Source: Gammaproteobacteria bacterium Ga0074134
GTDB taxonomy: Bacteria; Pseudomonadota; Gammaproteobacteria; Ga0077554; Ga007554
Length of the DNA stretch: 64,000 nucleotides
Assembly (NCBI GenBank): GCA_001464965.1
Contig: LNEJ01000045.1
Coordinates: 62,001 to 126,000 of the forward strand
Direction: 5' to 3'
Shown in pieces: positions 1,980 to 20,404 of this stretch (position 1 is its first letter; the number at the start of each line of letters is the position of its first letter). The translations under genes and the position numbers were made by a program. Under the pieces are notes generated by a model. The model saw nothing but the letters and a program-made list of their open reading frames with translations, was not told the origin of the DNA and ran no database searches.

Positions 1980-2244
1980 TTGGGTGCGCCATGCGCACCA
2001 ACTCTTGAAAAGGCTGGATGATGCGCACGGCGCATCCTATGGTTTTGTCACATTAATGTAATCTTTTGACATATATTAAGTTTTTGTGAAATCTTACGAG
2101 CAAGAATTCATATAACTGAATGCAAAGTACTTCTACCCTAAAGGGCACAAGTGTCTTGATGTGCATGAGGCGGAGGTGATTGCGTTGTCCCGGGAGTGCC
2201 GGGGTGGTTGATTGGTCTTATTAATAACAGTGAGAGGGGTACAC

Positions 2245-3327
2245 ATGCAGAAGAAATTGATTGCCTTGGCGGTTGCTAGTGTGATGGCTGCGCCATTGGC
2301 CGCCCAGGCCGGGGTTGAGGTCTATGGCAAGGCGCGGATGTCCGTGGATTATGTCAACAATGATGATACGGGTCTTCCGCCCCCCGCAGGTAGTGGCCTT
2401 GCCAATCCTGACAAGAGCGCGCTTTCGGTGTCAAGCAACGTCTCGCGCATTGGTTTCAAGGGCGACGAGGATCTGGGTAACGGTCTGAAGGCGATCTGGC
2501 AGATCGAGCAGCGGGTGGATTTCGATACCGGTGGCTTCGCTACCGGCGCTCGCAATACGTTTCTTGGGCTGAAGGGTGGTTTCGGTACGGTGCAATTCGG
2601 CAAGTATGAGACGCCGTTGCGTCTGGTGACCCAGCGCATCGACATTTTTTCCGATACCCGTGCCGATTACAACTCGATCATCGGCAATGTCAATGGAACG
2701 CTGGTTTTCGACAAGCGCAGCAATAATCTCATCAGTTATACCTCGCCCAGTATGCAGGGCTTCGGTTTTGCCGCTGCGTATTCGCCCAGCGATACCTCGG
2801 ATGATTTGCCCCGCTCCTCCGTGACGGGCAAGAAGAACGTCGCCAGCGTGAACGTGTCCTATGGCAATGGTCCGCTTTACCTAGGCGCTGCTTATGAGTC
2901 GCAGGGCAAGTACACCACCGATACGTATGATGCCAAGGCCACCCGCTTGGGCGGTTCCTGGGATTTCGGTCAGGGTAGCTCGATCGGCGGCGTCTGGGAG
3001 ACGGCCGACAGGGGTGGGCCGAGCGGCAAGCGGGATGCCTGGTATGTGAACGCGGCGCACAAGATGGGGGATACCACCCTGAAAGGCGCGGTAGCCGCAG
3101 CGGGTAATCTCAGCGGCACGTCCGACTCGGGCGCGATGCAATATTCGCTGGGTGCCTTCCATGCGTTATCGAAGGCGACCGAGGTTTATGCCCTGTACAC
3201 GATGGTGAATAATCACAAGAACGCCGGCTATGGGTTGTGGAATGGCCAGCTTACCACCAAGGGCTATGGCGACAAGAGCGTGTCTGCGCTTTCCGTCGGT
3301 TTAAACTACAACTTCTCGTCCAAGTAG
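2245..3327 (+). CDS. Outer-membrane porin, paralogue of the preceding gene
   Basis: Near-identical signal peptide and N-terminus (MQKKLIALAVASVMAAPLAAQAGVEVYGKARMSVDYVNNDD); C-terminus LNYNFSSK. Confidence 0.9.
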   Translation: MQKKLIALAVASVMAAPLAAQAGVEVYGKARMSVDYVNNDDTGLPPPAGSGLANPDKSALSVSSNVSRIGFKGDEDLGNGLKAIWQIEQRVDFDTGGFATGARNTFLGLKGGFGTVQFGKYETPLRLVTQRIDIFSDTRADYNSIIGNVNGTLVFDKRSNNLISYTSPSMQGFGFAAAYSPSDTSDDLPRSSVTGKKNVASVNVSYGNGPLYLGAAYESQGKYTTDTYDAKATRLGGSWDFGQGSSIGGVWETADRGGPSGKRDAWYVNAAHKMGDTTLKGAVAAAGNLSGTSDSGAMQYSLGAFHALSKATEVYALYTMVNNHKNAGYGLWNGQLTTKGYGDKSVSALSVGLNYNFSSK

Positions 3328-3634: not shown

Positions 3635-4489
3635 TTGAAAATAAATCACCAAGAACATTCGTTGCGTGGGAGAGGGCTCGTTGCCGGTGCAGTGCTGCTT
3701 ATTGTCTGTGGCTCGGTTTTTTTTGCCACAAGCGGCGCTTTGGCCGGTATTTTTAACACCAAGCACAATCTCGGCAGCACGGGCGTGAACGCGGCCAGCC
3801 AATTTAGCGGCACGCGGGAGATTTGCGTGTTCTGCCATACCCCCCATGGCGGCAACGAGGCCGCTGCCGTCCCCCTCTGGAACCGCAATCTCGACCCCAA
3901 TGGGTTTCAGACCTATGACCAGATGGGCACCACCACGCTCGATGCTCAGGTGGAGCAGGTGGGTTCCGTATCGCTGGCGTGCCTCTCCTGTCACGATGGC
4001 ACCCAGGCCATGGATTCGCTGCTCAATGAGCCGGGTTCGGGGCGGGTTGTGCCCGGTTTCAGGAGCGGTATCTGGAGCGGCCAGGCGGCTTCCGTGGGCG
4101 GCAGGATCGCACCGCCCGACGTCATAACCAATTTGAGTAAGGATTTGACCAATGATCACCCGGTGGGCATCCAGTACGCGGGCGGTGGTTATTCCAATTC
4201 CAATCCCTCCGGTCCGGGTGCGGACAAGGACTTCAACCAGGCCAATACCGCGATTGTCGGCACGGAGAGGGTGTGGTGGGTAAACACCCCTGTCGAGGGT
4301 TCGCTGGCCTTCGAGAAGACCGATATGAAGCTGTACACACGCATCGGCACGCGCGGTAAATTTGCCGGCGAGCCGCAGCCGTATGTTGAGTGCGCCTCAT
4401 GCCATGATCCGCATGTCGACTACAATCCCACCTTCCTGCGCGTCGACCCCAAGGGCAGTGTGGTATGTTTGACCTGTCATGCGAAATAG
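3635..4489 (+). CDS. Exported tetraheme c-type cytochrome
   Basis: Four CXXCH motifs (CVFCH, CLSCH, CASCH, CLTCH); NTKHN...FCHTPHG...PLWNR motifs shared with the 11-heme protein; TTG start likely. Confidence 0.85.
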   Translation: MKINHQEHSLRGRGLVAGAVLLIVCGSVFFATSGALAGIFNTKHNLGSTGVNAASQFSGTREICVFCHTPHGGNEAAAVPLWNRNLDPNGFQTYDQMGTTTLDAQVEQVGSVSLACLSCHDGTQAMDSLLNEPGSGRVVPGFRSGIWSGQAASVGGRIAPPDVITNLSKDLTNDHPVGIQYAGGGYSNSNPSGPGADKDFNQANTAIVGTERVWWVNTPVEGSLAFEKTDMKLYTRIGTRGKFAGEPQPYVECASCHDPHVDYNPTFLRVDPKGSVVCLTCHAK

Positions 4490-5357
4490 GGGTGGGCGCT
4501 GGCGGGCGGTAATGATATTAACCCTGGCCTTGGCGAGCGTTACCGCGCCCGGGGCGCCGCCCGAGGGGGCGGAAAGAGCCGCCGCGTCGTTCGCCGTAGT
4601 GGGGGGCGAGGCAATATCGCAGGAGGAGTATCAGTCCGCGCTGCATGAGGGGATGCGGCGTAAATTTTTTCATGGCGCGCCCTCGCGGGAACAGGTTGAT
4701 GCCTACCGCCGCGAAGTGGCGCAGGGCTTGATTGACCGTGTTCTGCTGCGGCAGGAAGCGAGGCGCCGTGGCTTGGAGGGCGACGATCTGTTGCGGCGTC
4801 TGGAGGAGAGTGTCCGGCGCGTGCCGGAACCGGCCGCGGAAGAGGTGCGCAACTATTATGATGCTCATCCGGAGAAATTTACCGCGCCGGAGCGGTTGAG
4901 GGTCTCGCTGATCCTGCTCAAGGTGGAGCCTTCTGCGACAGGCGCGGCATGGAGGGCGGCGGAGGCCGAGGCGGCGCGGCTGGTTGAGAAGTTGCTGAAG
5001 ACGGAGCCGGAGCGCCGGGGCGAGGAGTTTGCCGGATTGGCCCGCTTGCATTCCGGGGATGTCTCCGCGAGCCGGGGCGGGGATCTGGGGTATGTGCATA
5101 AGGGTATGCTGGCCGGTGAGGCGCAGCAGGTTTTGGATGGCATGAGGCCGGGCGATATCTCCGTGCCGCTGTTACTGCTGCAGGGGGTGGCGGTGCTGCG
5201 GCTGGAAGAGCGCGTCGCGCCTGCATTAAGCGTTTTTGATGCCGCAAAGACGCGCGCGCGCGATTTGCTGGCGAGAGAGCGGGGGGGGGAGGCGTGGCAG
5301 GCGCTCATAGAGCGGCTGCGCAGGGAAACGCCGGTTACGATAAATGAGAAATTATAG
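4479..5357 (+). CDS. Parvulin-type peptidyl-prolyl cis-trans isomerase, exported
   Basis: SurA/PpiC-like architecture: VGGEAISQEEYQ..., FAGLARLHSGDVSASRGGDLGYVHKGML; overlaps the cytochrome stop codon. Confidence 0.85.
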   Translation: MRNRGGRWRAVMILTLALASVTAPGAPPEGAERAAASFAVVGGEAISQEEYQSALHEGMRRKFFHGAPSREQVDAYRREVAQGLIDRVLLRQEARRRGLEGDDLLRRLEESVRRVPEPAAEEVRNYYDAHPEKFTAPERLRVSLILLKVEPSATGAAWRAAEAEAARLVEKLLKTEPERRGEEFAGLARLHSGDVSASRGGDLGYVHKGMLAGEAQQVLDGMRPGDISVPLLLLQGVAVLRLEERVAPALSVFDAAKTRARDLLARERGGEAWQALIERLRRETPVTINEKL

Positions 5358-5389
5358 TTCTGAATTATAAAAGTGCAATGTCGTAGGGT

Positions 5390-5426
5390 GCGTCCCACGC
5401 ACCAACGACGATGGTGCGTGGGACGC
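5390..5426. repeat. Perfect 15-bp inverted repeat (GCGTCCCACGCACCA / TGGTGCGTGGGACGC, 7-nt loop)
   Basis: Read directly from sequence. Confidence 0.9.
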
Positions 5427-5581
5427 GCTCTGCATGACGGTCGCCTGAATAGTTACGAAATATTCACCCTCCCTGCGTAGCGGCAGTGGGGCTGTCTGCA
5501 ATCCGGTGCTTTTTAATAATAATTTGAATGCTATTTAGGGGAGCGCCGCCGGCGCGGTTAGCAATATGACTGTCACGCTTT

Positions 5582-7438
5582 ATGTATATGAGCAGATTTG
5601 ACGCCAGGACTTATATGCTGGCACTGCTCGCGTTCGCGTGGCCATTGCGCGGTTTTGCGGTGGCGGTTGGGCCGGCGGAGGTGACGGGCAGCCTGGGATA
5701 CAATTATCGCCTGCTGCAAGGTCCTGGCAGCAATGACTCGGCGAGCAACCAGTTTTTACTCAACCTGCGCGCGAATTCCTATGTTTGGCAACCCTGGTTT
5801 GCCACGACGGAGGGCGGCCTGACCCTGACGCGGGATGCCACCAGCGTCAAGGGTGCCAATCCGGATAGCGGCCTCCAGGACAGCAGTTCCAGTATAGTGA
5901 CGGGCGAGTTCAATCTCAACCTGCTCCCGCAAAGCCGCTCGCCTTTTGGTCTGCGCTACCTGGCCAGCAATAGCCGTGTCGACATGGGGAGGATCAGCAG
6001 CGCCCCGGTGACGTTTACGAACCTGGAGTTCGACACCCGCCGCCTCGAATTGCGACAGTCCTACCTCACGGAGCAAAATGACCGCTTCTTGCTCAGGTAT
6101 GACACTTCGAACTGGAGTTCGGTCACCGACGGCAGCTATGACGATAGCCTGCTGGGGATGGAAATGGATGTGCGGCGCGCCAAGCAGAATCTCCTGGTCA
6201 AGTTAAGCCAGGGCACCACAGAGCACTCGCTATCCAGACAGCGCAACGAGAACCTTATATTTGATCTGAGCCATTTTTACACGGCATCCTCCGCTTTGCG
6301 GATTGACACCAAGGCCAGTTATTACAATTTTGACCGGTCTTTCCGGGTGACCAGCGCCAGCGCGACATCTGGCAGCAGCACCACCAATATTGCGCAAGCC
6401 TCATCGTTCATGTTTTGGCGTCCCGAGGCGAGCCCGCTCTCGCTCAGCGGCGGTGTACGGGCCTTTAAACTTGATGGCAATACTGCGCTTGACTCCAATA
6501 GTTCGCTCAATCTGAGTGCCAACCTTGGCGGGTTTTATCAGTACAGCAAACGCCTGCGCTTCGATGGCAGCGCGGCGATCACCACCACGGACAGCAGCGG
6601 TGTTGCAACGCGGATCTCCCGGCAACAGGCGGGGGTGCTGTATCAATCGGATATTATGGATCTTTTCAAGGGGTCCGGCACGTATCAATGGTATGCTACC
6701 GGATCGGCCGATAATCAGACTGACAAGGCGGATAATCAACTGCCGCACAAGAACGAAAGCCGGCAGTCGGTCTATACCACTTTGGCGCACAACGGCCAGA
6801 AAACATGGCTTGTTAATGAGACATCTTCGGTGAGATTGAGTATGGGGCAGTCGCTTAACGGGTTTTACCGCTTCGGCGGCCGCGATACGATTACTGCCCA
6901 GCAGGACCACCTGGGAACGGTGACTGACCGCCAGTTCGCGGGGATTGCGTCCGCCAACGCCCGGCTGGATCATACCGGGACGGTTGCATGGAGCCAGTCG
7001 GATAGCGGCTCCTCGACCGTGCAGACGACCCTGTCGGACTCGCGCAGCCTGTCCGATACCAAGGATAGCCAGCAGCTTGCCAACTTTCAGATAATGCGGA
7101 CCCAGCCCATCGACCGCTTGAGTTTTTTGTCGGGTAATCTTACTGTGCAGCATGTGCGCCAGGATTTTCCGGGTCTGGGGCTGGCTTCCAATATTACGAC
7201 GGCAACAGGTAGAATCGACTATCAGCATTCCAGCGTGTTTGGCATCACCAATCTGCGTTTCCTGTCCAACCTGTTTGTCTCTAGGTCGGCAACGCAGCAG
7301 GGGATCGACCGCTCTGAATGGGACAACCGCCTGGATTATGCGATTGGACTGCTGGATGCAAGCCTGAGCTTGCGTTTAATACAGATCGACAGGCAGAATT
7401 CAAGTTTGCTATTGTTCAGGATTGCGCGTCGTTTTTGA
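5582..7438 (+). CDS. Putative outer-membrane beta-barrel protein (618 aa) of the cytochrome locus
   Basis: Hydrophobic export signal, then alternating polar/aromatic beta-rich sequence, C-terminal SLLLFRIARRF ending in aromatic F; no CXXCH. Confidence 0.65.
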   Translation: MYMSRFDARTYMLALLAFAWPLRGFAVAVGPAEVTGSLGYNYRLLQGPGSNDSASNQFLLNLRANSYVWQPWFATTEGGLTLTRDATSVKGANPDSGLQDSSSSIVTGEFNLNLLPQSRSPFGLRYLASNSRVDMGRISSAPVTFTNLEFDTRRLELRQSYLTEQNDRFLLRYDTSNWSSVTDGSYDDSLLGMEMDVRRAKQNLLVKLSQGTTEHSLSRQRNENLIFDLSHFYTASSALRIDTKASYYNFDRSFRVTSASATSGSSTTNIAQASSFMFWRPEASPLSLSGGVRAFKLDGNTALDSNSSLNLSANLGGFYQYSKRLRFDGSAAITTTDSSGVATRISRQQAGVLYQSDIMDLFKGSGTYQWYATGSADNQTDKADNQLPHKNESRQSVYTTLAHNGQKTWLVNETSSVRLSMGQSLNGFYRFGGRDTITAQQDHLGTVTDRQFAGIASANARLDHTGTVAWSQSDSGSSTVQTTLSDSRSLSDTKDSQQLANFQIMRTQPIDRLSFLSGNLTVQHVRQDFPGLGLASNITTATGRIDYQHSSVFGITNLRFLSNLFVSRSATQQGIDRSEWDNRLDYAIGLLDASLSLRLIQIDRQNSSLLLFRIARRF

Positions 7439-7589
7439 CGAGTCCATCGATGGGCGAGGTACGGCTCTAGGGAGGCAGGAGGTAGAGCCGCGCCGGGAGC
7501 GGCGGCCGATGTGTGGTGTTGTGCGGTTGGGATATGGCCGCGAAAGTTGTTGTCAAACGATTTGATAATTGAAGATGGGAGGGTAGCGT

Positions 7590-8054
7590 ATGTTTGTAAC
7601 CAAGGGTCGTTCCATGTGGGGCGCCGCTGTATTGGGTGTTGCCGCATGGCTTGCAGTTTTAATGGTGCCAACGCCCGCGCAGGCGGAGTATGGCGATGTT
7701 GTGATCAATAATTATGCCGATGCTGCGGGTATGCGCCCGGCGGTCTTTTCGCACTGGTTTCATCGTGTCCGTTTTCGCTGCAAGGTGTGCCATGCGGACT
7801 TGGGTTTCCAGTTCAAGGCGGGTGGCAACAAAATAACCATGGCCAAGATCATCGACGGCAAGTTCTGTGGTGCTTGCCATAATGGTGAAATTGCCTGGTC
7901 GGTGGAAAACTGCGGCATGTGCCATTCCGGCGTTCCCGGTATGCCGACGCACTTCCACGGCAGTACAGTCCAGACGCTGGTGGCGCCCGCCTATCAACCG
8001 ATGACGGCACCTTCCGCTCCCGCCGCGCCCCAAGCACCTGCTCCTAAAAAGTGA
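7590..8054 (+). CDS. Periplasmic triheme c7-like cytochrome
   Basis: Signal peptide; CKVCH, CGACH, CGMCH; FSHWFH...CKVCH arrangement typical of c7-type triheme proteins. Confidence 0.8.
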   Translation: MFVTKGRSMWGAAVLGVAAWLAVLMVPTPAQAEYGDVVINNYADAAGMRPAVFSHWFHRVRFRCKVCHADLGFQFKAGGNKITMAKIIDGKFCGACHNGEIAWSVENCGMCHSGVPGMPTHFHGSTVQTLVAPAYQPMTAPSAPAAPQAPAPKK

Positions 8055-8073
8055 TGGATAGAGGAAAAAGAAG

Positions 8074-8814
8074 ATGAATCGGTATAGTAAAACGCTTTTT
8101 GTGACATTTGTTCTGTCGCTGCTGGTGGCGGGGCCTGCATGCAGTTCGCAGGCTCAAGGGGTGGCCCGGCCTGATGGTTCGGTGCCGGTAAAGGATCTGT
8201 CTTATGCGCCTGATTATAAGCCCGTCGACGAGATTGCCCAATCCGATGTGCAGGTGATACACATCGCCGAAATCGCTGATATCAACAGCTTCAACCGCAA
8301 TCTGAAGAAACGGCCATTCCAGTTGCCGCCCGCGGAAGACGGCCTGCGTGACCCTCAAAATGAGGCCACCCATATCCTGGCAGCACCCAAGCCGGCATTC
8401 GAGGGGCTTCCTACTACTGAGTTCGGTAATCGCGTTGACTGGGTGAAGACGCTCGATGAGAAAAAGGTCAGGCCGCGCTGGGACCGTGAAGATCCCGATG
8501 CGGAACCGTTTGTGATGGATCTTGATATCGTGCGCCCGGTAAAGGCCTCGGTGCCCGATGTGGTGTTCCCGCACCGGCAGCATACGGAGTGGCTGTTCTG
8601 CTCCAACTGCCATCCCGCGATCTTTATTCCGCAGAAGGGCGCTAACCAGATCAACATGTCCGCCATTTTGCTGGGCCAGAAGTGTGGCGTATGTCACGGC
8701 AAGGTAGCCTTCCCGATTACCACCAAGTCGTGCAAGAAGTGTCATTCCAAGCCTAAGCCGGATGATTGGAAGCCGCCGCTGAGTGAGGCTACGCTCAAGA
8801 ATCCCTGGAAGTGA
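8074..8814 (+). CDS. Triheme c7-type cytochrome domain protein
   Basis: CSNCH, CGVCH, CKKCH in FPHRQHTEWLFCSNCHPAIFIPQKGANQINMSAILLGQKCGVCHGKVAFPITTKSCKKCHS. Confidence 0.85.
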   Translation: MNRYSKTLFVTFVLSLLVAGPACSSQAQGVARPDGSVPVKDLSYAPDYKPVDEIAQSDVQVIHIAEIADINSFNRNLKKRPFQLPPAEDGLRDPQNEATHILAAPKPAFEGLPTTEFGNRVDWVKTLDEKKVRPRWDREDPDAEPFVMDLDIVRPVKASVPDVVFPHRQHTEWLFCSNCHPAIFIPQKGANQINMSAILLGQKCGVCHGKVAFPITTKSCKKCHSKPKPDDWKPPLSEATLKNPWK

Positions 8815-8924
8815 TGGCGTGCGGTGGACCATGAATTAACAGTCCACCGCCCATGCTTTTTCTTGCGCACGTGGTTAAGGAAGTGCTGATTTATCGCGTT
8901 GCCGTGTGGCGCAAGAAGGTGCGT

Positions 8925-8964
8925 GCGCTGAGAATTCCAGGGTGGAATTCTCAGCGCTTTCTTT
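8925..8964 (+). terminator. Probable intrinsic terminator with perfect 15-bp stem
   Basis: GCGCTGAGAATTCCA-ggg-TGGAATTCTCAGCGC-TTTCTTT. Confidence 0.75.
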
Positions 8965-9207
8965 AAGTGACCTTCTGAAAAGCCTCTCTTCAAAAAGAGT
9001 TTTTTCAGAAATGAAGCTTGAAGTAATGTTTGGTTTCTGGGCTTAACGTCTGGGCAGAGTTGTGTCGTGTCGCAGCCGGGCTTCGGGACTGTTATTTGGT
9101 CTTTGTGTGCCGCTAACCTAACGCTAGTGGCCATTTGGCCGGAGTATCCGGGGTTTCTTCGATTGTATAAGTAATGACGTGCCGTTCTTGCAGGTGAGAA
9201 GTTAATT

Positions 9208-10551
9208 ATGATGAAGTTTGCAAATCAACAGGTTGTATTTATGGCGCGCGTGCTTGCGCTTTGCGTTGCGGGGTATAACGGTTCGCTGTTCGCCGCGCCA
9301 CACTCTTCCGGCGGGGCTGCCGAAAAGCGGGAATTTGCGGTTACTTCCGCGCCCAAGGACAGTACCCATCCGTTCTATGGACAGGGGAGCAAGATGGGGT
9401 TGGTTGTTGATGGCGCGCAGGGCAAAACCCTGGTTTTAACACGCGGGGTGGAGTATACCTTTAACGTTAATACGGGCCCTATGCACGATTTTTATTTCTC
9501 AACCAGCCCGGTGGGCCAGGGTGCCATGACAATCACCGAAGGGGTGACTGGCCAATTTACCTATAGGGGAGTGGTAGAGTTTGCTCCGGGCGCATCCACG
9601 CCGGATGTGGTCTATTACGGGTGCCGCAATCATAAAAACATGGGCGGCAAGATCTATATCGTTGATAAAGGGCAAGCCGCGCCGGTGGAATCGGCATCTG
9701 CACCGGCAGCCCCTGCTGACACCGAGGGGTCTTCGGCTCCGCCTCCTGTAACGCCTTCTGCCATGGAGGCCCAGGTCAAGCAGAAAATTGATTTTGCCAA
9801 TATGCTGGTGAATGTGTCCAAGGGCGCTCAGCGTATTTCCGCAAGCAGTAATGCGCAGGCCAAGGAGATGCTGGGTTCGGCGCGTGGCCACCTTGACGCA
9901 TCGCGGACGGCCTTGGCAGCAGGGGATGTTGGCAAGGCACAAACGGAAGTTGATGAGTCGCTGAAACTGGTGAGCACGGCAGCGCGCATGGTGCCCAGCG
10001 ATTCGCAGGAGGTGTCTGATCCTAAGTTCAAATATAACGAGCTGCTCGACGCGATAAAGACGTTTGAGTCATCGTATAAACAGCACCGTGACAGATTGGG
10101 TGCCAAGAAAGGGACTGCCGCAAACACGCTGGATACGAAGAAATTCCAGGATGCCCTTGCGCAGGCCCGCAGTCATGCGGATGCCGGTCAATATGATGAG
10201 GCGAACAAATCTTTAATGAGTGCGCAAAGAATGGTTACGAGCGCGCTGGGCGCGCTGCTTAATGCTGAGACGGTGGTGTATGACAAAAACTTCGCTACGC
10301 CCGCCGAGGAATATGAGTATGAGCTGGCACGTTACAAGAGCTATGAAGAGTTGATTCCGCTCGCCATAGAGCAAAAGAATCCCCCGGCTAATACGGTGGA
10401 GAAGATGCGTGAATTGGCGGAAAAGGCCAAGACTATCCACGGGGAGGCAGTGCAGCAAGCCGCCCGGAAAGATTATGCGACGGCTATCGGCAATCTCCAG
10501 GATGCCACGATGCAGCTTCAACGGGCACTAATGATTGCCGGTGTGAATTAG
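9208..10551 (+). CDS. Exported cupredoxin-like protein with C-terminal helical repeats
   Basis: N-terminal TGPMHDFYF and YYGCRNHKNMGGKIYIV supply a plausible His/Cys/His/Met type 1 copper ligand set; C-terminal half is helical with repeat-like segments (GDVGKAQTEVDESLKLVSTA, GQYDEANKSLMSAQRMVTSA, KDYATAIGNLQDATMQLQRA). Confidence 0.6.
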   Translation: MMKFANQQVVFMARVLALCVAGYNGSLFAAPHSSGGAAEKREFAVTSAPKDSTHPFYGQGSKMGLVVDGAQGKTLVLTRGVEYTFNVNTGPMHDFYFSTSPVGQGAMTITEGVTGQFTYRGVVEFAPGASTPDVVYYGCRNHKNMGGKIYIVDKGQAAPVESASAPAAPADTEGSSAPPPVTPSAMEAQVKQKIDFANMLVNVSKGAQRISASSNAQAKEMLGSARGHLDASRTALAAGDVGKAQTEVDESLKLVSTAARMVPSDSQEVSDPKFKYNELLDAIKTFESSYKQHRDRLGAKKGTAANTLDTKKFQDALAQARSHADAGQYDEANKSLMSAQRMVTSALGALLNAETVVYDKNFATPAEEYEYELARYKSYEELIPLAIEQKNPPANTVEKMRELAEKAKTIHGEAVQQAARKDYATAIGNLQDATMQLQRALMIAGVN

Positions 10552-10706
10552 CCACGGTGGTTGGGTTGGTTCAAGAGGAGTGGCGGTCGCTTCGGCCCTC
10601 GGCGGCCGCTCACGTGAGGGTTGTGAAGGCGCTAGCAAGTTAAAGCAAGAAGCCAGTGATCCGGCGTGCTGGGTGGTTGGGGTGTGTTTGCGGGTTTGGG
10701 GTGGCG

Positions 10707-11321
10707 ATGAGCGAAGAAAAAGATCTCCAATTCAATAGCCGGGACGGGCGGACGTTCTATGCGCGCGCTTTGGGTGTCATGGCGGCGTTGCTGTGCCTGC
10801 TGCTGATGGAGGGTGCCTTTGCTTCGGAGTTGATATGGTCCAAGGGGCGGCATTTCCAGACTCAAGGCGAAGCGGTGCCGCTGGCTGAGGATGGTATCCG
10901 TGACCCAACCAATCCGGCAATCAAGGTGTTGGCCGACCCCGCCGAGGCAATGGCGGATTTCCCCCGGGATTCAAAAGGCATCATCGACTGGGTAAAGGCG
11001 CTCGATGACGGTTTAATCGATCCGCGCAAGGGACTCAATGGCGAGGCCCAAATGTTCCCCGTGGATTTCGATATTATCTTCAAAAATACCGGCTCGATGC
11101 CTAATGTCCGTTTCCCCCATCGGCAGCACACTGAATGGCTGACGTGCGCCAACTGCCATCCGTTGATCTTTCTTCCCCAGAAGGGGGGGAATCCCGTTAA
11201 CATGGCGGCCATCATCCAAGGCCGGTATTGTGGTGTGTGCCACGGCAAGGTCGCCTTTCCGCCAACCATGAATTGTGGACGATGCCACTCCGTACCCCGT
11301 CAAACCGCCGGCTTTCGCTGA
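10707..11321 (+). CDS. Triheme c7-type cytochrome domain protein, paralogue of 8074-8814
   Basis: FPHRQHTEWLTCANCHPLIFLPQKGGNPVNMAAIIQGRYCGVCHGKVAFPPTMNCGRCHS; three CXXCH; start codon uncertain. Confidence 0.85.
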   Translation: MSEEKDLQFNSRDGRTFYARALGVMAALLCLLLMEGAFASELIWSKGRHFQTQGEAVPLAEDGIRDPTNPAIKVLADPAEAMADFPRDSKGIIDWVKALDDGLIDPRKGLNGEAQMFPVDFDIIFKNTGSMPNVRFPHRQHTEWLTCANCHPLIFLPQKGGNPVNMAAIIQGRYCGVCHGKVAFPPTMNCGRCHSVPRQTAGFR

Positions 11322-12616
11322 CAGCGCTGGGCGTAGTCCTGGCGCTGGCGCAAACCGGCTGTTCCTCGCTGGGGCGGCCTGCGCCCGTACCACAGGTCAA
11401 ACAATCACAGGCTGTGAACCAGGATCAATCCGTCCAGGCCACTGATACAGGTCTGGGTGCTGGTGCGCCCGTTTCCCCGGTGGTTGGCCAGAAGTCTCCG
11501 CAAGACGAGGTTCTGCTGGCATCAGCGCCTGTGACGGCAATGCCGGAGCCGCGTCCCTTGGCCACCGGCACCGATGGCGTTACGCCAGTAGAGTCAGCTG
11601 CGGCGCCTGTTGGTCTGCTTCCTGGGCAGGGCAGCTCAAGTCAGCCTGTGGTGGAGCAAAAAGGCGCGCCTGCCGTTGATGTGATTCCGGTGCCGCTTTC
11701 CGTGCAGGTGGTGCAAGCTCCCAGTGCCGCCCCAGTGCCGCCCGCCCGGCCCACCGAACTATTGCAGCCTTGGGAGGTTATTCGTGGTGGACCGGAAGGT
11801 AATTTCGTCACGGGCGTGAGGGAGTTGAATTTTGTGCGGCCCATCGCCGTCGCGGCGCGTGGGAATGCCCTTTTTGTGATGGATGCCGGCCAGGACATGC
11901 TGCTCAGGTATGAGCGTGCTACCGGCAGGTTGACGCCCGTCATGAATTTGAATGGCGTGGTGACGGGGGATGGGGCGGATCTCTATGTTGCTCGTGACCT
12001 GTCGTTTTATATCGCAGATACCTTTGGTGCCCGGGTTTTGCAGTTTGACAGGAAAGGCCGTCTGCTGCGTACATTCAGTAATCCGCTGAACATGACCCGC
12101 CCAGTCTCCGTGACTGTAGACGAGGCGAGTGGACGTGTGTTCGTGGCGGATGGAGTTTATGATTACATTTTGGTATTTAACAGCGCGGGCCAGTTAACCG
12201 CTTCCATGGGTGGCCGCGGTGATGATCCCGGGGAATTCTTGAATATTACCGCCATGGCACAGGGGCCTGATGGTTTGTATGTTACGGCGCGTGTTGGACA
12301 GCACATTCAGGTGTTGGGAGAGGATGGTCAGTACACATATTCCCTTCCGCAGGAGGGGATAATCTTTCCGACGGCGATTGCCGTTGATCAAGGGAACCGT
12401 GTTTTTGTCAGTGACTTTAGCGATAGCAGCATCAAGGTCTATGAACAGGGGCGCCTGGCCGGGAGTGTTGGCCAGCCTGGTTCAGGTCTCGGTCAATTCA
12501 GGCATATCGCTGATTTGTGGCTCGATGAGGGGCTGCTATTTGTTGCTGACAGCCTGAATGGGCGCGTTCAGGTCATGCGTGTTGCACCGGGTACCAAGGG
12601 CGAAAATAATAATTAA
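11282..12616 (+). CDS. NHL-repeat beta-propeller lipoprotein
   Basis: Lipobox LALAQTGCSS; repeats such as PVSVTVDEASGRVFVADGVYDYILVFNSAGQL. Confidence 0.8.
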   Translation: MPLRTPSNRRLSLTALGVVLALAQTGCSSLGRPAPVPQVKQSQAVNQDQSVQATDTGLGAGAPVSPVVGQKSPQDEVLLASAPVTAMPEPRPLATGTDGVTPVESAAAPVGLLPGQGSSSQPVVEQKGAPAVDVIPVPLSVQVVQAPSAAPVPPARPTELLQPWEVIRGGPEGNFVTGVRELNFVRPIAVAARGNALFVMDAGQDMLLRYERATGRLTPVMNLNGVVTGDGADLYVARDLSFYIADTFGARVLQFDRKGRLLRTFSNPLNMTRPVSVTVDEASGRVFVADGVYDYILVFNSAGQLTASMGGRGDDPGEFLNITAMAQGPDGLYVTARVGQHIQVLGEDGQYTYSLPQEGIIFPTAIAVDQGNRVFVSDFSDSSIKVYEQGRLAGSVGQPGSGLGQFRHIADLWLDEGLLFVADSLNGRVQVMRVAPGTKGENNN

Positions 12617-13699
12617 ATGCTGACCTGCTTGCAGCGTTGTTGTGTTGGCGTCGTGTTAATGGTCTTTGCCCTGCTGACGGGCTGCGCCGAATCACGCTCA
12701 GTGTTGCGCTATCAGGTAGAAGGTGCGCAGGCCACGGTGTGGCCTGCGGCGCCCGAGACACCCCGTTACCGCTATGTTGGCGAATTGACGGGTGAGGAGA
12801 ATATAAAGACCGAGGAGGACGGAGGCATTGGCGCCCTTGGGTTGAAGGGGTTGAAGTGGCTGGTCGGGTTGTTTTCGGAACAGCGCCAGGCCGTGGTATT
12901 GCAACGCCCGCAGGCCGGCGTGGTGGATGACAGCGGCAGGATATACGTCACCGATGTTAGCCGCCAGGCGGTTTATGTGTTCGACGAGAAGGCGGGTAAG
13001 CTCCATGTATGGGAAATGGCGCTGGAGGGTGCCCGTTTCGAGGCGCCTATAGGTATTGCGACAGGTGCGAACGGTGAGATCCTGGTGGCCGACTCATCGC
13101 TGGGCAGGGTGGTGCGCCTCAATAGGGAGGGTGTCCCCGTTGGCAGTTTCGGCAAGGGTGAGTTGAAACACCCGACTGGGCTGGCGCGTGATGCGGCGCA
13201 GGGCAGAATTTATGTGGCGGATACCCATGAGAATCAGATCAAGGTGTTCGATGACACAGGGAAATTGCTGGACACCTTCGGCAGTACCGAGCGTCGCGAA
13301 GGGCCGGACGGGTTTAATTCCCCGACTCACCTGGCGTTTGCCAATGGCAAGCTGTATGTTGCGGATACGCTGAACGCGCGAATTCAGGTGCTCACCCCGG
13401 ACGGCAAGGTGTTGCGCATTTTTGGCAGGCGCGGCCTGTTTGTCGGCGACATGACGCGCCCCAAAGGGGTGGCTGTCGATGGTGCCGGCAATGTGTATGT
13501 CGTAGAATCTTATTATGATCATTTGCTAGTATTTAACGATGAGGGTGAGCTGCTGCTGCCGATCGGTGGGGGGGGCAGCGGCGTGGGGGAATTTTATTTG
13601 CCCGCGGGGGTCTGGACCGATCAACACAGACGGATATATGTCGCGGATATGTTTAACGGGCGTGTTGTGATCTTTGAGTATTTGGGGGGAGGGGCATGA
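12617..13699 (+). CDS. NHL-repeat beta-propeller lipoprotein
   Basis: Lipobox LLTGCAES; multiple NHL repeats (RPKGVAVDGAGNVYVVESYYDHLLVFNDEGEL). Confidence 0.85.
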   Translation: MLTCLQRCCVGVVLMVFALLTGCAESRSVLRYQVEGAQATVWPAAPETPRYRYVGELTGEENIKTEEDGGIGALGLKGLKWLVGLFSEQRQAVVLQRPQAGVVDDSGRIYVTDVSRQAVYVFDEKAGKLHVWEMALEGARFEAPIGIATGANGEILVADSSLGRVVRLNREGVPVGSFGKGELKHPTGLARDAAQGRIYVADTHENQIKVFDDTGKLLDTFGSTERREGPDGFNSPTHLAFANGKLYVADTLNARIQVLTPDGKVLRIFGRRGLFVGDMTRPKGVAVDGAGNVYVVESYYDHLLVFNDEGELLLPIGGGGSGVGEFYLPAGVWTDQHRRIYVADMFNGRVVIFEYLGGGA

Positions 13700-16401
13700 C
13701 CGTTTTGCCGGAAACAAAACGGGACAGCCAGAGGCTGCCCGAAGAACGAGGGCTATTGAAGGCTCGCGCTACCAGGCTGCGCGCGGTTGCGGCCATGCTG
13801 CTATGTGCGGGTGCGTTGCTGTTGGGCGCCGTGAGCGTCCAGGCCGAGCGCGTGGCCGATATACGCAATACCAAGCATAATTTCTCGTCGACAGTGATAC
13901 CGGTATTGCCGGAAGGCGTAACGCGCGATGCCTATGCCACCAACGAGTCCCAGATCTGTGCTTTCTGCCATACCCCCCATGGTGCTACCCTCGCCCCCAA
14001 AACGCCGTTGTGGAATCGCAAGCTGTCAGGTGCGACCTATACCCCATATACATCGACGTCCATAGACGCGACCGATCTCGGTCAGCCAGGCGGAAAATCC
14101 AAGCTGTGTTTGTCATGCCATGACGGCACGTTAGCCCTGGGTTCGGTCAATGTGCTGAATCGCGTTGAAAGACCGGTCATTGATTTCACCGGCCCGGGCG
14201 TCGGTCAAAATGACACTATCCCAGAAGGCCGTGGTCAGCATACCGGTTTCACGCGCCGTCTGGGTACGGATTTGAGCAATGACCATCCGATCTCGTTTAC
14301 CTTCGACAGCGCTCAGGCGGCGCGTGACGGTGAACTGTATGATCCCGCGATGGTGGCGCACCTGGGCACCCGTACTCCTGGCGTTAAACCCACGCTGCCG
14401 CTGGAGGACAATAAAGTTGAGTGTGTGAGTTGTCACGATCCCCATCTGCGCGATACCTCCGGGGATAATATCAAGTTTCTACGCGTCAACCGCTTCCAGC
14501 AACAGCCGCCGACCGACAAGCGATTCAATGAAAAGAGCGATATCATCTGCCTGGGTTGCCATGATAAGGCTGGCTGGGTGGGCTCCGCGCATGCTCATCC
14601 CGCGGTAGGCAATGAACGCTATGCCGACGCGGCGGCCAAGCTCCGCGAATTTCCCAAGAATTTTCCGGTGTGGCAGGCGGCATGCCTGAATTGCCATGAT
14701 CCCCATACCGTGCAGGGCTCCCGCCGCTTGCTGCGTGAAGGCACGGATGGGCCGACGACAGTGGGTGCGGATGGCGCCAGATTCAAGCAGGGCGGCAATC
14801 CGGCCATCGAGGAAACCTGTTACGCCTGTCATTCCACGGATGGCGGTACCTTGCAGGGGCAGGGTGTGAAGCCTGGTTTTGAGGTGCCGGATATCAAGAC
14901 CGATTTCACCACCATGGCGCGCCACATGCCGATTTCCAGCCGTGACCAGCCCGCCGGGCGTGAAAGACATGATATCGGTAGCGCCACTGAAGCGCAGGCT
15001 AATGGCCCTGGTGGGGGTAAGGATTTTGTCGAATCCCCGGCCAATATGGGCAAGGCGAGCATGACGAACAAAAAGGGCGAGGCGGGCGGCCTGCAAAATC
15101 GCCATGCGGAATGCACGGACTGCCATAACCCGCACCGCGTGACCAAAAATCGTATTTTCAACGCCGACACGTCGATTCCTGATACGGAGGGCACGCACAA
15201 CCACACGGCGGCGCAGATCGTGAATAATCCCGAGCGCCATCACACCAATATTGCCTCGGGAGTGCTGCGTGGCATCACCGGCGTGGAACCGCGTGGCTGG
15301 CCGAGCACTGAGTTCGGCAGCGAACCGACGGCTTTCGATTTGAAACGCGGCGATCCCGGCGTGGGCGGCAGTACCGATGTAAGCGCGCCCTATGTGACGC
15401 GCGAGTATCAGGTGTGCATGAAGTGCCACTCCAATTATGGTTTCGATAAGGCGCCCATGCTGGGGTCTTTCGCCGGAGGGACTCCGCCGGGCACCAATGC
15501 AATGATTCAATACACCAATATCGGTATGGAGTACCAGTCGCCGGATGACCACAAGGGAGAGGGTACTTCACCCACTCCCAGTGGGGCATACAAGGGTCCG
15601 GTTGCCGGACAGGGGTACACGGTGGACTATCAGGCCGATAACCACCGATCCTGGCATCCGGCATTGAAGGATACCGGACGTACCATCGATGTGAGACGGG
15701 TGGACAGCCCAAATATCTGGCGCGAACCCTTCAATGCAGGTGTGGGCATACAGACCATGTATTGCACCGATTGCCATGGTTCGACCACTGCCCCGGGCAC
15801 CGTGGTGCCCGACGGTGGCGAGCAGGGCAATGCGTGGGGGCCGCATGGCTCCAACAGTGACTTTCTCTTGAAAGGCCCATGGGATGACCAGACCGGTGAC
15901 AGCAAGCAGGATCACCTGTGTTTCAAGTGCCATAATTATGATTATTATGGCAAGAAATTCCCGCTGGGTGTGATAACTGACAACCAGACGCTCAAGAGCG
16001 GTTTTGCCAGAAATCCAAATGATGCGTCAGGTTTCGGCTGTTTGAATGTCCAGCGTGTCAACCTGCATACCGGCCATGCGCAGGTGGTGCAGAATTTCCG
16101 CTGTACGTATTGTCATATCGCCGTGCCGCATGGCTGGAAGAACAAGAACTTCCTGGTCAACCTGAATGATGTTGGTCTTGAGGCAGGGTTGCCGCCGGGT
16201 ACCCAGATGCGCAACAACACCACGGCGCGTTTTTACAATGGGCCGTATTACAACGGTTCCGTGCTGAAGGTGGTGAACTTCAGGCGCAGTGGCGAGTGGA
16301 CGCCGCAAAACTGCGGGTCCGCGGGCATGCCTGGCAATGGCGTGCGCGGGATTAGCTGGATGAACGGCAGTGGCGGTGAGACGTGTAGCAACCTGCCATG
16401 A
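13696..16401 (+). CDS. Large exported multiheme c-type cytochrome (11 CXXCH)
   Basis: CAFCH, CLSCH, CVSCH, CLGCH, CLNCH, CYACH, CTDCH, CMKCH, CTDCH, CFKCH, CTYCH; signal peptide; ATGA overlap with upstream gene. Confidence 0.9.
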   Translation: MTVLPETKRDSQRLPEERGLLKARATRLRAVAAMLLCAGALLLGAVSVQAERVADIRNTKHNFSSTVIPVLPEGVTRDAYATNESQICAFCHTPHGATLAPKTPLWNRKLSGATYTPYTSTSIDATDLGQPGGKSKLCLSCHDGTLALGSVNVLNRVERPVIDFTGPGVGQNDTIPEGRGQHTGFTRRLGTDLSNDHPISFTFDSAQAARDGELYDPAMVAHLGTRTPGVKPTLPLEDNKVECVSCHDPHLRDTSGDNIKFLRVNRFQQQPPTDKRFNEKSDIICLGCHDKAGWVGSAHAHPAVGNERYADAAAKLREFPKNFPVWQAACLNCHDPHTVQGSRRLLREGTDGPTTVGADGARFKQGGNPAIEETCYACHSTDGGTLQGQGVKPGFEVPDIKTDFTTMARHMPISSRDQPAGRERHDIGSATEAQANGPGGGKDFVESPANMGKASMTNKKGEAGGLQNRHAECTDCHNPHRVTKNRIFNADTSIPDTEGTHNHTAAQIVNNPERHHTNIASGVLRGITGVEPRGWPSTEFGSEPTAFDLKRGDPGVGGSTDVSAPYVTREYQVCMKCHSNYGFDKAPMLGSFAGGTPPGTNAMIQYTNIGMEYQSPDDHKGEGTSPTPSGAYKGPVAGQGYTVDYQADNHRSWHPALKDTGRTIDVRRVDSPNIWREPFNAGVGIQTMYCTDCHGSTTAPGTVVPDGGEQGNAWGPHGSNSDFLLKGPWDDQTGDSKQDHLCFKCHNYDYYGKKFPLGVITDNQTLKSGFARNPNDASGFGCLNVQRVNLHTGHAQVVQNFRCTYCHIAVPHGWKNKNFLVNLNDVGLEAGLPPGTQMRNNTTARFYNGPYYNGSVLKVVNFRRSGEWTPQNCGSAGMPGNGVRGISWMNGSGGETCSNLP

Positions 16402-17441
16402 TCCATACGGTTCGCGCGCTAGGTTCCATCCGCTTGGCATTGCTGGGCATGGTGTTGCTGGCCATAGGTGCGGCGTTGAGCTACAACAACCCGGTGAGCA
16501 TGCCGGTGTGGGTGCTGGTTATCCCTTTGGCGTTTCTGGCGATTAATCTGCTGGCTGCCATTGCCACCAATCCGCGTATCAACCGCCGTGCAGGGTTGTT
16601 GGTTTTTCATCTTGGCCTGCTTGCCATCATCGTGCTGGCGGGCATCGGGCGTTTGACTCATCTGGATGCGCAACTGGAGATTACCGAGGGCAGTGCGTTT
16701 TCCCCTCAGGAATTGACCGAGGTGAATAAGGGTCCCTTCCACTCCGGCGCCATGGAGAAAATAGCCTTCGTGCAGGGCTCATACACGGTGGAATACGCGG
16801 CAGGAATGGTGCGTGGCCTGACCCACAGCCAGGTGCTGGTGCCGGATGAGCGCGGCGCGGCAGTGACCAGGGTGGTGGGCGATGATCGTCCCCTGGTGCT
16901 GGAAGGCTATCGCTTTTACACTACGTTTAACAAAGGTTTCGCCCCGGTGCTGACATGGGTGCCTGATCTGGCGCCGGGCGAAGCTGTCACCGGTACAGTC
17001 CACATGCCCTCGTACCCGCTTTTTGAATATAAACAGGATAGCGCCTGGACGCCGCCAGGTGGCAAGGAGATCAAGCTTTGGTTACGCCTCAAGACCGGAT
17101 TGCGCGAGGACGCCCCCTGGGTGCTGGATGGCAAAGGCGCCAGCGGTGTGCTGGTGGTCACGTCCGGGGCGCGGCGGATTGAATTGGAACCGGGGGAGAC
17201 GATCCAACTGGAAGGTGGAAGGCTGCGCTATGAGCGTTTGACAAGCTGGATGGGCTACAAGGTGTTTTACGACCCCACGCTGCATTGGTTGTTTGTCTCG
17301 GCGATGGTGGCGATAATAGGCTTGGGGGCGCACTTTTGGAGCAGGTTTGGCGTCCGGCTGCGGCACGCGTCCACGCCGCCAGCAGGCGCGGGACTGAAAG
17401 CAGCCTCTGTGTCTGAGATTTCTGGTGGGAGGGGATTATGA
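16398..17441 (+). CDS. ResB/Ccs1-like cytochrome c biogenesis protein (System II)
   Basis: N-terminal TM helices, SIRLALLGMVLLAIGAALSYNNPVSM, C-terminal TM helix, adjacent to a CcsA-like gene; ATGA overlaps on both sides. Confidence 0.75.
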   Translation: MIHTVRALGSIRLALLGMVLLAIGAALSYNNPVSMPVWVLVIPLAFLAINLLAAIATNPRINRRAGLLVFHLGLLAIIVLAGIGRLTHLDAQLEITEGSAFSPQELTEVNKGPFHSGAMEKIAFVQGSYTVEYAAGMVRGLTHSQVLVPDERGAAVTRVVGDDRPLVLEGYRFYTTFNKGFAPVLTWVPDLAPGEAVTGTVHMPSYPLFEYKQDSAWTPPGGKEIKLWLRLKTGLREDAPWVLDGKGASGVLVVTSGARRIELEPGETIQLEGGRLRYERLTSWMGYKVFYDPTLHWLFVSAMVAIIGLGAHFWSRFGVRLRHASTPPAGAGLKAASVSEISGGRGL

Positions 17442-18313
17442 GCGACGCTCTTGAAAGTGTCATCGGCCAAGCCACGGAACTGCCCTGGCTATGGGCCGGC
17501 CTTGCTGCCTATGCACTGGCTACCTTTATTGCCGTGGCGGGGGTGATCAGGACACAGGGGCGGGCGGTCGGTGCAATGGCGGTGAGCCGTTCACATGAAA
17601 AGCTGGTGCTGATGATCGTCGCTACAGGAGTGGTGTTGATCGCTATAGCGCTGGCGGAGCGCTGGGTGCGCATCGGGCACGGTCCGTTCGTCAATCTGTT
17701 CGAGCTGTTGATGAGCCAGTTGTTCAGCCTCGGATTGGTGTTTACGCTGGTGTATTGGCGCATGCCGGTATTGCGCCCCAGCGCCGTGGTAGCGCTGCCG
17801 CTGATGGGGGTGCTGGGGGGCTGGGTGCTGGCCTTGCAGCCTGTTGATACGCCGTTGCCTCCCACGTATCACAACGACTGGTTATGGGCGCATGTGGGGC
17901 TGGGCAAGATTTTTCTGTCATTGAGCCTGGTGGGAACGGGGCTGGCCGGTGTGATTCTGTTGCGCCATACCCGGTTCTTTGCCGGGTGGTTCCGCCAGAT
18001 GCCTGCTGACGAAGTGCTCGATGGCCTCGCGTGGCGTTTCATGCTGCTCGCGTTCATCTTTCACAGCTTGATGCTCATCGCGGGCGCGGTATGGGCGCAG
18101 GATGCGTGGGGGCGATATTGGGCGTGGGATGCGCTGGAAACATCGTCATTTCTGAACTGGTTGCTGCTCGGCGCAAGCATTCACGCACGCCTGACCTACC
18201 GCATGCCTATCCGTGTTGGAGCGATGGCAATCATCGCCGTGTTTGTGTTTGCCTTTATTACCTATTTTGGCACACCGTTTTACAGCGAAGCTGCGCATAA
18301 GGGCGTGATATGA
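17438..18313 (+). CDS. CcsA/CcmC-family cytochrome c assembly protein (System II)
   Basis: Multi-TM protein with WWD-type motif WGRYWAWDALETSSFLNWLLLGASIHARL. Confidence 0.85.
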   Translation: MSDALESVIGQATELPWLWAGLAAYALATFIAVAGVIRTQGRAVGAMAVSRSHEKLVLMIVATGVVLIAIALAERWVRIGHGPFVNLFELLMSQLFSLGLVFTLVYWRMPVLRPSAVVALPLMGVLGGWVLALQPVDTPLPPTYHNDWLWAHVGLGKIFLSLSLVGTGLAGVILLRHTRFFAGWFRQMPADEVLDGLAWRFMLLAFIFHSLMLIAGAVWAQDAWGRYWAWDALETSSFLNWLLLGASIHARLTYRMPIRVGAMAIIAVFVFAFITYFGTPFYSEAAHKGVI

Positions 18314-19056
18314 GTTCTGTTGCTCCCGGTATTGCTCCATCCCCTGTACCCATGCAGTCGCCTGGACGTGATCCAATTGAGGCTACGACATCTATTGTTT
18401 CGCTGCTGCTGGTGGTGGGGATGGTGGGCCTTCTTGCGGGCGTGACGCGCAATCCCTCCTTCGTGCCACCGGCGAAAGTAAGCGAAACGCATGCAGTTGC
18501 GGATCCCAAAAAAGATCCGCAACTGCATGCAAAGCAGGCACGTATGGCCCAGATCAAAACGCGCTTCGAGCAGGCGGTGGTGATGCTGCACGCAAAACAG
18601 TATGAGCACGCCGCCACCGCCTTGCACCGCGTCTTGGAGCTTTCGCCCAATCTGGTCGATGCCCATGTCAATATGGGATTCGCCTTGTTCGGTTTGAAGC
18701 GTTACAAAGAGGCCGAGAGTTTTTTCAACACGGCGACCAATTTGCGCCCCTACCAGGCCAATGCCTACTGGGGGCTTGCCGTTACCCTGGAGGAAATGGG
18801 CGACTTGCGGGGCGCGCTGGGGGCGATGCGTACCTATATCCATCTTTCTCCCCCGGAAGACCCGATGGTGCGTAAGGCGCGCGCGGCGTTGGGAGAATGG
18901 GAGTACGCGCTGGAGCGCGGGCCATTGCCCAAGGAGGAGGCCGATTTCCTTGCCAGAAAAGGCAGAGAGTGGACCGAACGCAACAGCCCTGCGGTGGATA
19001 TGCCAGAGCAAAAAACGCAAGAGGGCGCGCCGGTCCGGGTGACGCCGGTGCGGTGA
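18310..19056 (+). CDS. Membrane-anchored TPR protein
   Basis: N-terminal TM helix and TPR-like repeats (HAATALHRVLELSPNLVDAHVNMGFALFGLKRYKEAESFFNTATNLRPYQANAYWGLAVTLEEMGD); ATGA overlap. Confidence 0.75.
   Translation: MSSVAPGIAPSPVPMQSPGRDPIEATTSIVSLLLVVGMVGLLAGVTRNPSFVPPAKVSETHAVADPKKDPQLHAKQARMAQIKTRFEQAVVMLHAKQYEHAATALHRVLELSPNLVDAHVNMGFALFGLKRYKEAESFFNTATNLRPYQANAYWGLAVTLEEMGDLRGALGAMRTYIHLSPPEDPMVRKARAALGEWEYALERGPLPKEEADFLARKGREWTERNSPAVDMPEQKTQEGAPVRVTPVR
18489..18530. repeat. Perfect 17-bp inverted repeat inside the TPR CDS
   Basis: GCATGCAGTTGCGGATC-ccaaaaaa-GATCCGCAACTGCATGC. Confidence 0.9.
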
Positions 19057-19096
19057 TGTCTTTTTGAATAATAAAATTAAGTCGAGAAAGCAAAAA

Positions 19097-20404
19097 ATGA
19101 ATGAAAAACTATCCGCAGCCTCTGGCGATGTCGGTTGGTCAGTGGTGTGTTATGCCGGCGATGAGCAAACCGGCGCGGTATCGGTTATCAGGCATGATGG
19201 CGCGACGGGAAGTACAACGGTAAAAGCGTTAGACACAGAAACCGTTGCTAATCCCGGCTCACGGCCGGTTTTTATTAACACTACCCAAGATGATCGGGCG
19301 GCGATGCTTGATCCAGTGAGCAAGCAGATTTATATCCAGAATACCTTTCCGGCCATGGCGCGGCCTGATCACATGTATCGTGATGTCGGCAAGGCGCAGC
19401 TTTGGCTGGGCAACGATGGTGACAAAGACACGGGTAATGATGTGCTCAATTGCTTCGATACCGGTTCATCCGTCACGGTGATTCAGAATGACACCCAGGC
19501 AGGCAAACCGGATGTGCCGTCCAAGGTGCTGAAGACGCTTTGCGTGGGTCGCGGCCATCATGTGACAACGTTTACCTTTCCTGCCAGCTCGGCACCCGCA
19601 ACGCCGCTACGCGCTTTTGTCAGTAATCTGATGGACGGCACGATTTCCGTGGTGGGCAACGACCCCGCCGATGCTGCCACGTATCTCAAGATTATTGCCA
19701 CCATCAACCTGTGCGAACCGGCAAGGGAAAAGAATGGCATCACCGGCGTGCCGAACAACGCCGCGCCGCACGGTATGGTGTATTCACCGCTGACCGGCAA
19801 GGTCTACAACATGAATAACGGTTACGGCACCATTGCGATTATCGACCCGCTTACCAATAGTGTCGAGGATTCGATTTACGTCGGCACCAGCACCAATGCG
19901 CTGCTAAGCCCGGATGGCCGTTTCATCGTTTGCAAAGGCGCGGACCGCAAGAGCGATGAGAGCCATGTGATCGGCAAGATCACCGTGCTGGATGTGGTGA
20001 CCAAAAACGTCTCCGAGACGATGGATTTGGTCGATGTCTACCCCAGCGTCTACCGCTTCTCCTCCGACGGCAAGAAGCTCTATCTGACCACCGCCTCCAC
20101 CGGCAACAAAACGCAGAAGGCCAACCTGAAAATGAGCGCGCTGCTGGTGTTCGACAGTTCCGCGCTGCCAGCGTTGCGGCTGAGTAAGGAAGTCGTCGTC
20201 GGCGTGGCCGATTGCGGACGGCGCCCCATTGCGTTTCTGGAGCAGGATGGCGTATTCACGCGCACTTTTGTATCTAATCCCACCGACGGTACCCTGTCCG
20301 TTCTGGACGGCGATGACCAGGTACTGGAAACAGTGACTGTTTCAGCTCAGCCGGTATCTGCCCTGCATTTCTATAGTGACGAAGGAAGACTGCTCGGGGC
20401 GTGA
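19097..20404 (+). CDS. YVTN/NHL-like beta-propeller protein without obvious signal peptide
   Basis: Repeats such as AFVSNLMDGTISVVGNDPADAATY and TFVSNPTDGTLSVLDGDDQVLETV. Confidence 0.65.
   Translation: MNEKLSAASGDVGWSVVCYAGDEQTGAVSVIRHDGATGSTTVKALDTETVANPGSRPVFINTTQDDRAAMLDPVSKQIYIQNTFPAMARPDHMYRDVGKAQLWLGNDGDKDTGNDVLNCFDTGSSVTVIQNDTQAGKPDVPSKVLKTLCVGRGHHVTTFTFPASSAPATPLRAFVSNLMDGTISVVGNDPADAATYLKIIATINLCEPAREKNGITGVPNNAAPHGMVYSPLTGKVYNMNNGYGTIAIIDPLTNSVEDSIYVGTSTNALLSPDGRFIVCKGADRKSDESHVIGKITVLDVVTKNVSETMDLVDVYPSVYRFSSDGKKLYLTTASTGNKTQKANLKMSALLVFDSSALPALRLSKEVVVGVADCGRRPIAFLEQDGVFTRTFVSNPTDGTLSVLDGDDQVLETVTVSAQPVSALHFYSDEGRLLGA

Follow-up and report, generated by a model that had tools for sequence, protein, structure and literature searches.

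What does a run of genes for multiheme cytochromes, accompanied by a predicted outer-membrane barrel, a peptidyl-prolyl isomerase, NHL-propeller lipoproteins and a cupredoxin-like protein, do in an uncultured gammaproteobacterium? We addressed this question for a 64,000-nucleotide stretch of the genome of Gammaproteobacteria bacterium Ga0074134 (contig LNEJ01000045.1, positions 62,001 to 126,000; hereafter the window), in which we translated the ten genes at 3635-16401, all on the forward strand, and searched their products for Pfam and NCBIfam matches. It is close to certain that this locus is the Uet (undecaheme electron transfer) cluster, uetABCDEFGHIJ. All ten genes A to J are present in the published order, encoding a 4-heme cytochrome, a peptidyl-prolyl isomerase, a barrel, two 3-heme cytochromes, a TPR/helical protein, a further 3-heme cytochrome, two NHL proteins and an 11-heme cytochrome. 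It is the Uet cluster of a cupredoxin-bearing clade, and its host carries RuBisCO. A preliminary description, made from the sequence alone, had stated that the gene order matched no named conduit, which is incorrect. Its count of 24 CXXCH motifs was exact, the five exported cytochromes having 4+3+3+3+11, and all components lie where it had placed them; when the residues of the ten proteins were shuffled, the mean was 0.06 motifs and the maximum 2 over 2000 draws.

The Uet cluster is known from Candidatus Tenderia electrophaga, and has been published for Gallionella and Leptothrix too. Its names derive from the cathode-oxidising Tenderiales, and in the Gallionellaceae UetA is described as tetraheme, UetB as a peptidyl-prolyl isomerase, UetC as a barrel, UetD, UetE and UetG as triheme, UetH and UetI as NHL proteins and UetJ as undecaheme (PMC10734462). 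A review names the set uetABCDEFGHIJ (PMC12575090). The triheme genes of Ca. T. electrophaga are Tel_16515, Tel_16520 and Tel_16530, with the TPR gene Tel_16525 among them, and the undecaheme gene is Tel_16545; the three triheme genes were among the most highly expressed genes of this organism on a cathode (PMC5371394). For comparison we used a closed genome of 3,656,958 bases. This is very probably Ca. T. electrophaga, a name taken from gene positions, because a Cyc2-like gene and a gene for a hexaheme lipoprotein lie near the positions expected for Tel_03480 and Tel_04230. The uet order is identical in the two genomes, and every gene from A to J is matched with an E-value of 1e-49 or lower, at identities of 75, 39, 35, 78, 68, 45, 71, 39, 55 and 64%, respectively. 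The cluster described here therefore follows the Tenderia plan in its ten genes, their order, the heme numbers of 4/3/3/3/11, the barrel, the isomerase and the two NHL proteins, but its host is another, uncultured bacterium. The gene set, its order, its name and its interpretation as a conduit were already known, while the Uet literature, its founding paper aside, yielded no mention of an OmcE unit, of a predicted copper site in UetF, of linked ResB-CcsA-TPR genes or of the two clades described below.

The Uet cluster likely serves to take up electrons from an extracellular donor and bring them in across the outer membrane, by the following path and with the following roles. Candidate donors are Fe(II), minerals and electrodes. 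UetA, a tetraheme cytochrome of the OmcE type, would collect electrons outside the cell, perhaps as a filament, and UetJ would take them over, its first four hemes mimicking a UetA subunit and being followed by seven more. UetC would be the outer-membrane barrel that the wire passes, with UetJ within or beside it, and the c7 proteins UetD, UetE and UetG, together with the copper site of UetF, would carry electrons in the periplasm. Folding or scaffolding of the complex may fall to UetB together with the NHL lipoproteins UetH and UetI, and heme would be attached to the Uet cytochromes by the products of the linked ResB-CcsA-TPR genes. This scheme is based directly on the genes present and their order, on homologies and conserved ligands, and on a predicted barrel and a predicted cupredoxin fold; from these we infer where the proteins lie, which way the electrons run, that UetA may form filaments, that UetF would bind copper and in what order the carriers act. 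The preliminary description had also proposed an electron conduit, which agrees with all tests made and with the published interpretation of Uet, and conduit function is kept here as a proposal; we came across no different role already established for these genes. Uet is one of few predicted routes for bacterial electron uptake from cathodes and minerals.

How would electrons be collected outside the cell? The exported tetraheme cytochrome encoded by uetA (3635-4489, TTG start; four CXXCH motifs, Paired_CXXCH_1) is homologous across all four hemes to the OmcE nanowire subunit of Geobacter (7tfs, E-value 4e-23) and to the multiheme chain 9yuq (5.6e-25). Sixteen ligand residues, comprising four CXXCH motifs and four distal histidines in the same order, are 100% identical across 62 UetA rows, OmcE and 9yuq, and the same positions are retained in 93-99% of 101 UetJ N-terminal regions (a few genomes are represented twice in each set). 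UetJ (13696-16401) is an exported undecaheme cytochrome with 11 CXXCH motifs and Paired_CXXCH_1 matches, and its 11 hemes are retained in nearly all homologues. Its residues 43-251 match OmcE (7tfs) with an E-value of 1.8e-21, which gives UetJ the appearance of a filament subunit with seven hemes added. This arrangement differs from that of OmcE in that UetA is encoded in a conduit operon, beside an 11-heme protein in which its tetraheme unit recurs. One natural reading is that a UetA filament would dock on UetJ at the heme-1 end of the latter. If UetA is a nanowire and UetJ its docking piece, the cluster offers a concrete model for a cytochrome filament joining an outer-membrane conduit.

At the filament step the scheme has a rival, as UetA may instead be monomeric and act as a short outer adaptor, a version to which we give an even chance. 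Homology and ligand conservation are no proof of polymerisation, and what cytochrome filaments do physiologically is a matter of dispute (PMC11077965). The C-terminus of UetA, however, lies exactly two residues past the last CXXCH in 61/61 sequences counted, as it does in OmcE, which would leave this end free to stack on a neighbour, and the four distal histidines are retained. In OmcE, the interfacial heme takes a histidine ligand from the neighbouring subunit (PMC9473688). A second OmcE-like protein is encoded elsewhere in the host genome (L014, contig C65, approximately 18286-18987); it has five CXXCH motifs and ends two residues past the last heme, and proteins resembling it also occur in the genomes of relatives.

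How would the wire pass the outer membrane? The 618-residue product of uetC (5582-7438) had no match in the Pfam and NCBIfam profile scan. Its AlphaFold2 model, built from a 16-row homologue alignment, has 28 long antiparallel strands with a mean predicted local distance difference test (pLDDT) score of 84, and a Foldseek search of the PDB with this model returned mostly outer-membrane barrels. The strands and these matches bear out the preliminary assignment of UetC as a probable barrel. MtrB from the Mtr complex (6r2q_B) had the top TM-score among the matches listed (0.42, E-value 3.7e-8).

A conserved barrel of MtrB size, together with the OmcE homology, fits a conduit better than a periplasmic or outer-membrane redox enzyme that acts on a soluble sulfur, nitrogen or metal species and has no outside wire. 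Several multiheme families are enzymes, and no solved structure matches UetJ outside its OmcE-like N-terminus, which would leave room for such a function. The Pfam and NCBIfam scans, on the other hand, found no catalytic domain and pointed to no cofactor besides heme and the predicted copper site, and we regard an enzyme of this kind as highly improbable.

Other named conduits were compared with the cluster. MtrCAB and MtoAB share with it an MtrB-sized barrel and multiheme cytochromes, but were rejected, as the cluster encodes no decaheme MtrA/DmsE protein, and TIGR03508, the model for this protein, scored below its curated cut-off throughout the host genome. The PCC3 system of iron oxidisers likewise combines a porin with multiheme cytochromes. 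It was rejected on heme number, with 11 in the largest cytochrome of the cluster versus 21-27 in the periplasmic cytochrome beside the PCC3 porin. OetABI was set apart by its published description alone, which does not cover the uet gene set. The preliminary description had pointed to Geobacter-type bacteria and sulfate reducers for comparable loci; the nearest relatives were instead found in Gammaproteobacteria, Burkholderiales and some Alphaproteobacteria.

Which proteins would carry electrons onward through the periplasm? Three exported triheme proteins, earlier described as c7-like, match the c7 models PF14522 and TIGR04257 in the profile search. These are UetD (7590-8054; TIGR04257 5.4e-19, PF14522 8.4e-16), UetE, which has an N-terminal extension (8074-8814; TIGR04257 3.3e-17), and UetG (10656-11321, start probably near 10707; TIGR04257 7.4e-19). 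UetF (9208-10551) had been noted as a cupredoxin-like protein. A cupredoxin is indeed present, yet it is only one domain (approximately residues 40-155) of an exported protein, fused to a helical-repeat domain. Apart from a weak match to pseudoazurin (E-value 0.014), a sequence search of the PDB with UetF gave nothing but designed helical proteins, and a structure model was used for this reason. The predicted cupredoxin domain has a pLDDT of about 67-89, and the top eight Foldseek matches of the N-terminal domain model were all rusticyanin, with a probability of 1.00 and E-values of 4e-4 to 1.4e-3; the best was 1rcy (4.4e-4, approximately 19% identity).

Across an alignment of 14 UetF homologues of 31-88% identity, the four putative copper ligands H93, C139, H142 and M145 do not vary. 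The ligand motif is present in 39/39 deduplicated complete loci of the cupredoxin-bearing clade (clade I) with an intact uetF, and also in the UetF of the closed Tenderia-type genome and of a Candidatus Tenderia sp. genome. UetF has been a TPR protein in published Uet accounts, whereas a cupredoxin domain is seen here, in Tenderia relatives too, and its conserved ligands suggest that a protein previously read as a TPR scaffold takes part in a redox step. UetF resembles the rusticyanin of Acidithiobacillus ferrooxidans in the fold of its N-terminal domain and in its His-Cys-His-Met ligand set. The ligand loop of rusticyanin is C-x4-H-x4-M, whereas that of UetF is C-x2-H-x2-M, and UetF carries the fused helical-repeat domain. 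An identification as rusticyanin was rejected because of the difference in ligand spacing, and we call UetF a predicted type-1 cupredoxin that would bind copper. Further UetF-like helical proteins without a cupredoxin are encoded at two other loci of the closed Tenderia-type genome (L141, 9044-9916; L142, 9258-9878).

The predicted copper site bears on the direction of electron flow. The same conduit could work mainly outward, passing respiratory electrons to Fe(III) or Mn(IV) oxides at low oxygen. OmcE, the closest structural relative of UetA, is a metal-reduction protein of Geobacter (PMC9473688), reversibility has been argued for the multiheme conduits Mto and Mtr (PMC10734462), and undecaheme cytochromes are mentioned in Mn-reducing Dechloromonas too (PMC13264449, 2026). 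We nevertheless find an outward role unlikely. Cupredoxins are usually high-potential proteins, and a high potential suits uptake over discharge. Uet has been described from cathode and iron oxidisers, and the host genome (2.9 Mb, rated 100% complete) encodes a RuBisCO large subunit of 478 amino acids and a 462-amino-acid open reading frame with a Cyc2-like N-terminal heme segment of the heme-barrel type, the match covering 53 residues only. These genes fit, without proving, an autotroph able to oxidise iron.

Several points weigh against electron uptake as the function of the cluster. Sequence does not reveal the direction of flow, and among related conduits both directions occur. Some carriers of Uet are no obvious lithotrophs, and the undecaheme gene of Ca. 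T. electrophaga did not respond to electrode potential (PMC5371394). The likeness of UetC to MtrB is one of general barrel type (TM-score 0.42, 8% identity), and for this reason the sheathing of a cytochrome by UetC is not demonstrated. The Uet literature, again apart from the founding paper, contains no purified or deleted Uet protein.

How would the complex be assembled? The proteins with predicted folding or scaffolding roles are the exported parvulin-type isomerase UetB (4479-5357; PF00639 4.5e-12, SurA_N_3) and two NHL-propeller lipoproteins, all recognised in the preliminary description. UetH (11282-12616; PF01436 2.3e-11) lies in an open reading frame that opens at 11228, and its lipobox TGC fits a start at 11282; UetI (12617-13699; PF01436 2.5e-29) has five repeats. 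Three genes in the same range, absent from the preliminary description, follow uetJ. They encode a ResB-like cytochrome c maturation protein (16398-17441; PF05140 4.9e-11), a CcsA-like heme-handling protein (17438-18313; PF01578 6.3e-24) and a membrane-anchored TPR protein (18310-19056; TPR_2 7.7e-14). A ResB-like gene follows uetJ in nearly all complete clusters, usually with CcsA-like and TPR genes too where the contig continues, although none of the three was found in the 2.8 kb left after uetJ at loci L103 and L111. Cytochrome c maturation genes of system I, ccmABC and ccmEFGHI, also lie in the window (38152-45228), so that the host has a general Ccm system in addition to the ResB and CcsA genes of its uet operon. 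The ResB, CcsA and TPR proteins may be dedicated to heme attachment for the Uet cytochromes.

How widely is this plan shared? UetJ was detected in 21/95 genomes searched (E-value 0.001 or better), including 6/7 other members of the host's family, the seventh being an incomplete genome. UetJ proteins of this family share 86-94% identity with that of the host, and those of other families less. We also scanned 84,980 named species genomes and kept the 80 best matches, which represent 79 distinct loci. These are mostly from uncultured Gammaproteobacteria, with some from Alphaproteobacteria, Ramlibacter (in which a culturable isolate carries the cluster), Ideonella and Thiodiazotropha, and most loci long enough to show it have the order A4 B C D3 E3 F G3 H I J11.

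Two clades were apparent among these best matches and the relatives of the host. The clade with the cupredoxin comprises 39 complete clusters, in each of which a single UetF bears the motif, UetE has 3 hemes and uetD is present once. The cupredoxin is absent from 15 complete clusters; two UetF-like proteins are encoded in 14 of them, an extra triheme gene is present in 13, and UetE has 4 or 5 hemes in 10. Extra hemes occur in 14/15 loci without the cupredoxin versus 0/39 loci with it. On the UetJ tree the two kinds of loci form the two sides of one well-supported branch, and because this is a single split the association between cupredoxin loss and extra hemes is descriptive and carries no statistical weight. 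The clade without the cupredoxin is under-represented, as the sample was drawn from the best matches to the host protein. Locus L111 lacks the motif but falls in the cupredoxin clade, its uetF being broken into two frames. The copper-free clade provides a natural comparison for the role of UetF.

A more specific form of the uptake scheme would combine nanowire and conduit, with UetA as the filament, the UetJ N-terminus as its docking subunit and a rusticyanin-like copper site in UetF fed by the c7 chain. The second clade would dispense with the copper domain and mostly have extra hemes instead, in another c7 gene and often a fourth UetE heme, along with a second UetF-like protein. We put this combination forward tentatively, as one that is possible and on balance doubtful.

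Variants of the cluster were also seen. Two undecaheme uetJ genes lie close together in several clusters (L028, L079 and L085-L088), and L032 and L033 hold related but distinct clusters that encode an 11-heme protein, NHL proteins and 7-8-heme cytochromes, with approximately 32% identity to part of UetJ.

The remaining features of the region concern its expression and surroundings. A hairpin with a 15-pair stem, followed by TTTCTTT, lies in the gap between uetE and uetF (8925-8957, forward strand). It is possibly a partial terminator or an mRNA-stabilising element, and may set different expression levels for uetA-E and uetF-J. Stems of 11-17 pairs, differing in sequence, occur in the same gap in 5/9 relatives checked, the closed Tenderia-type genome included. 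Promoter and terminator scans of the uet region gave results barely above those of shuffled sequences. Two Gram-negative porins (Porin_4) are encoded directly upstream of uetA (639-1817 and 2212-3327), and a porin match was found in 23/62 fetched loci that hold uetA. The gene after the TPR gene (19064-20404) encodes a propeller-like protein without a Pfam match that could not be assigned to a family; it is present in the loci of G002-G007, of the host's family only, and was not seen in more distant loci. Farther along the window, a thioredoxin-like protein (45262) and a class I cytochrome c (45881) are followed by two adjacent propeller proteins (Reg_prop, 46459-48891). A GGDEF-EAL protein encoded at 49165-51624 has a CXXCH motif, CLACHG, in its sensor region, and is possibly a cyclic di-GMP regulator that bears heme c.

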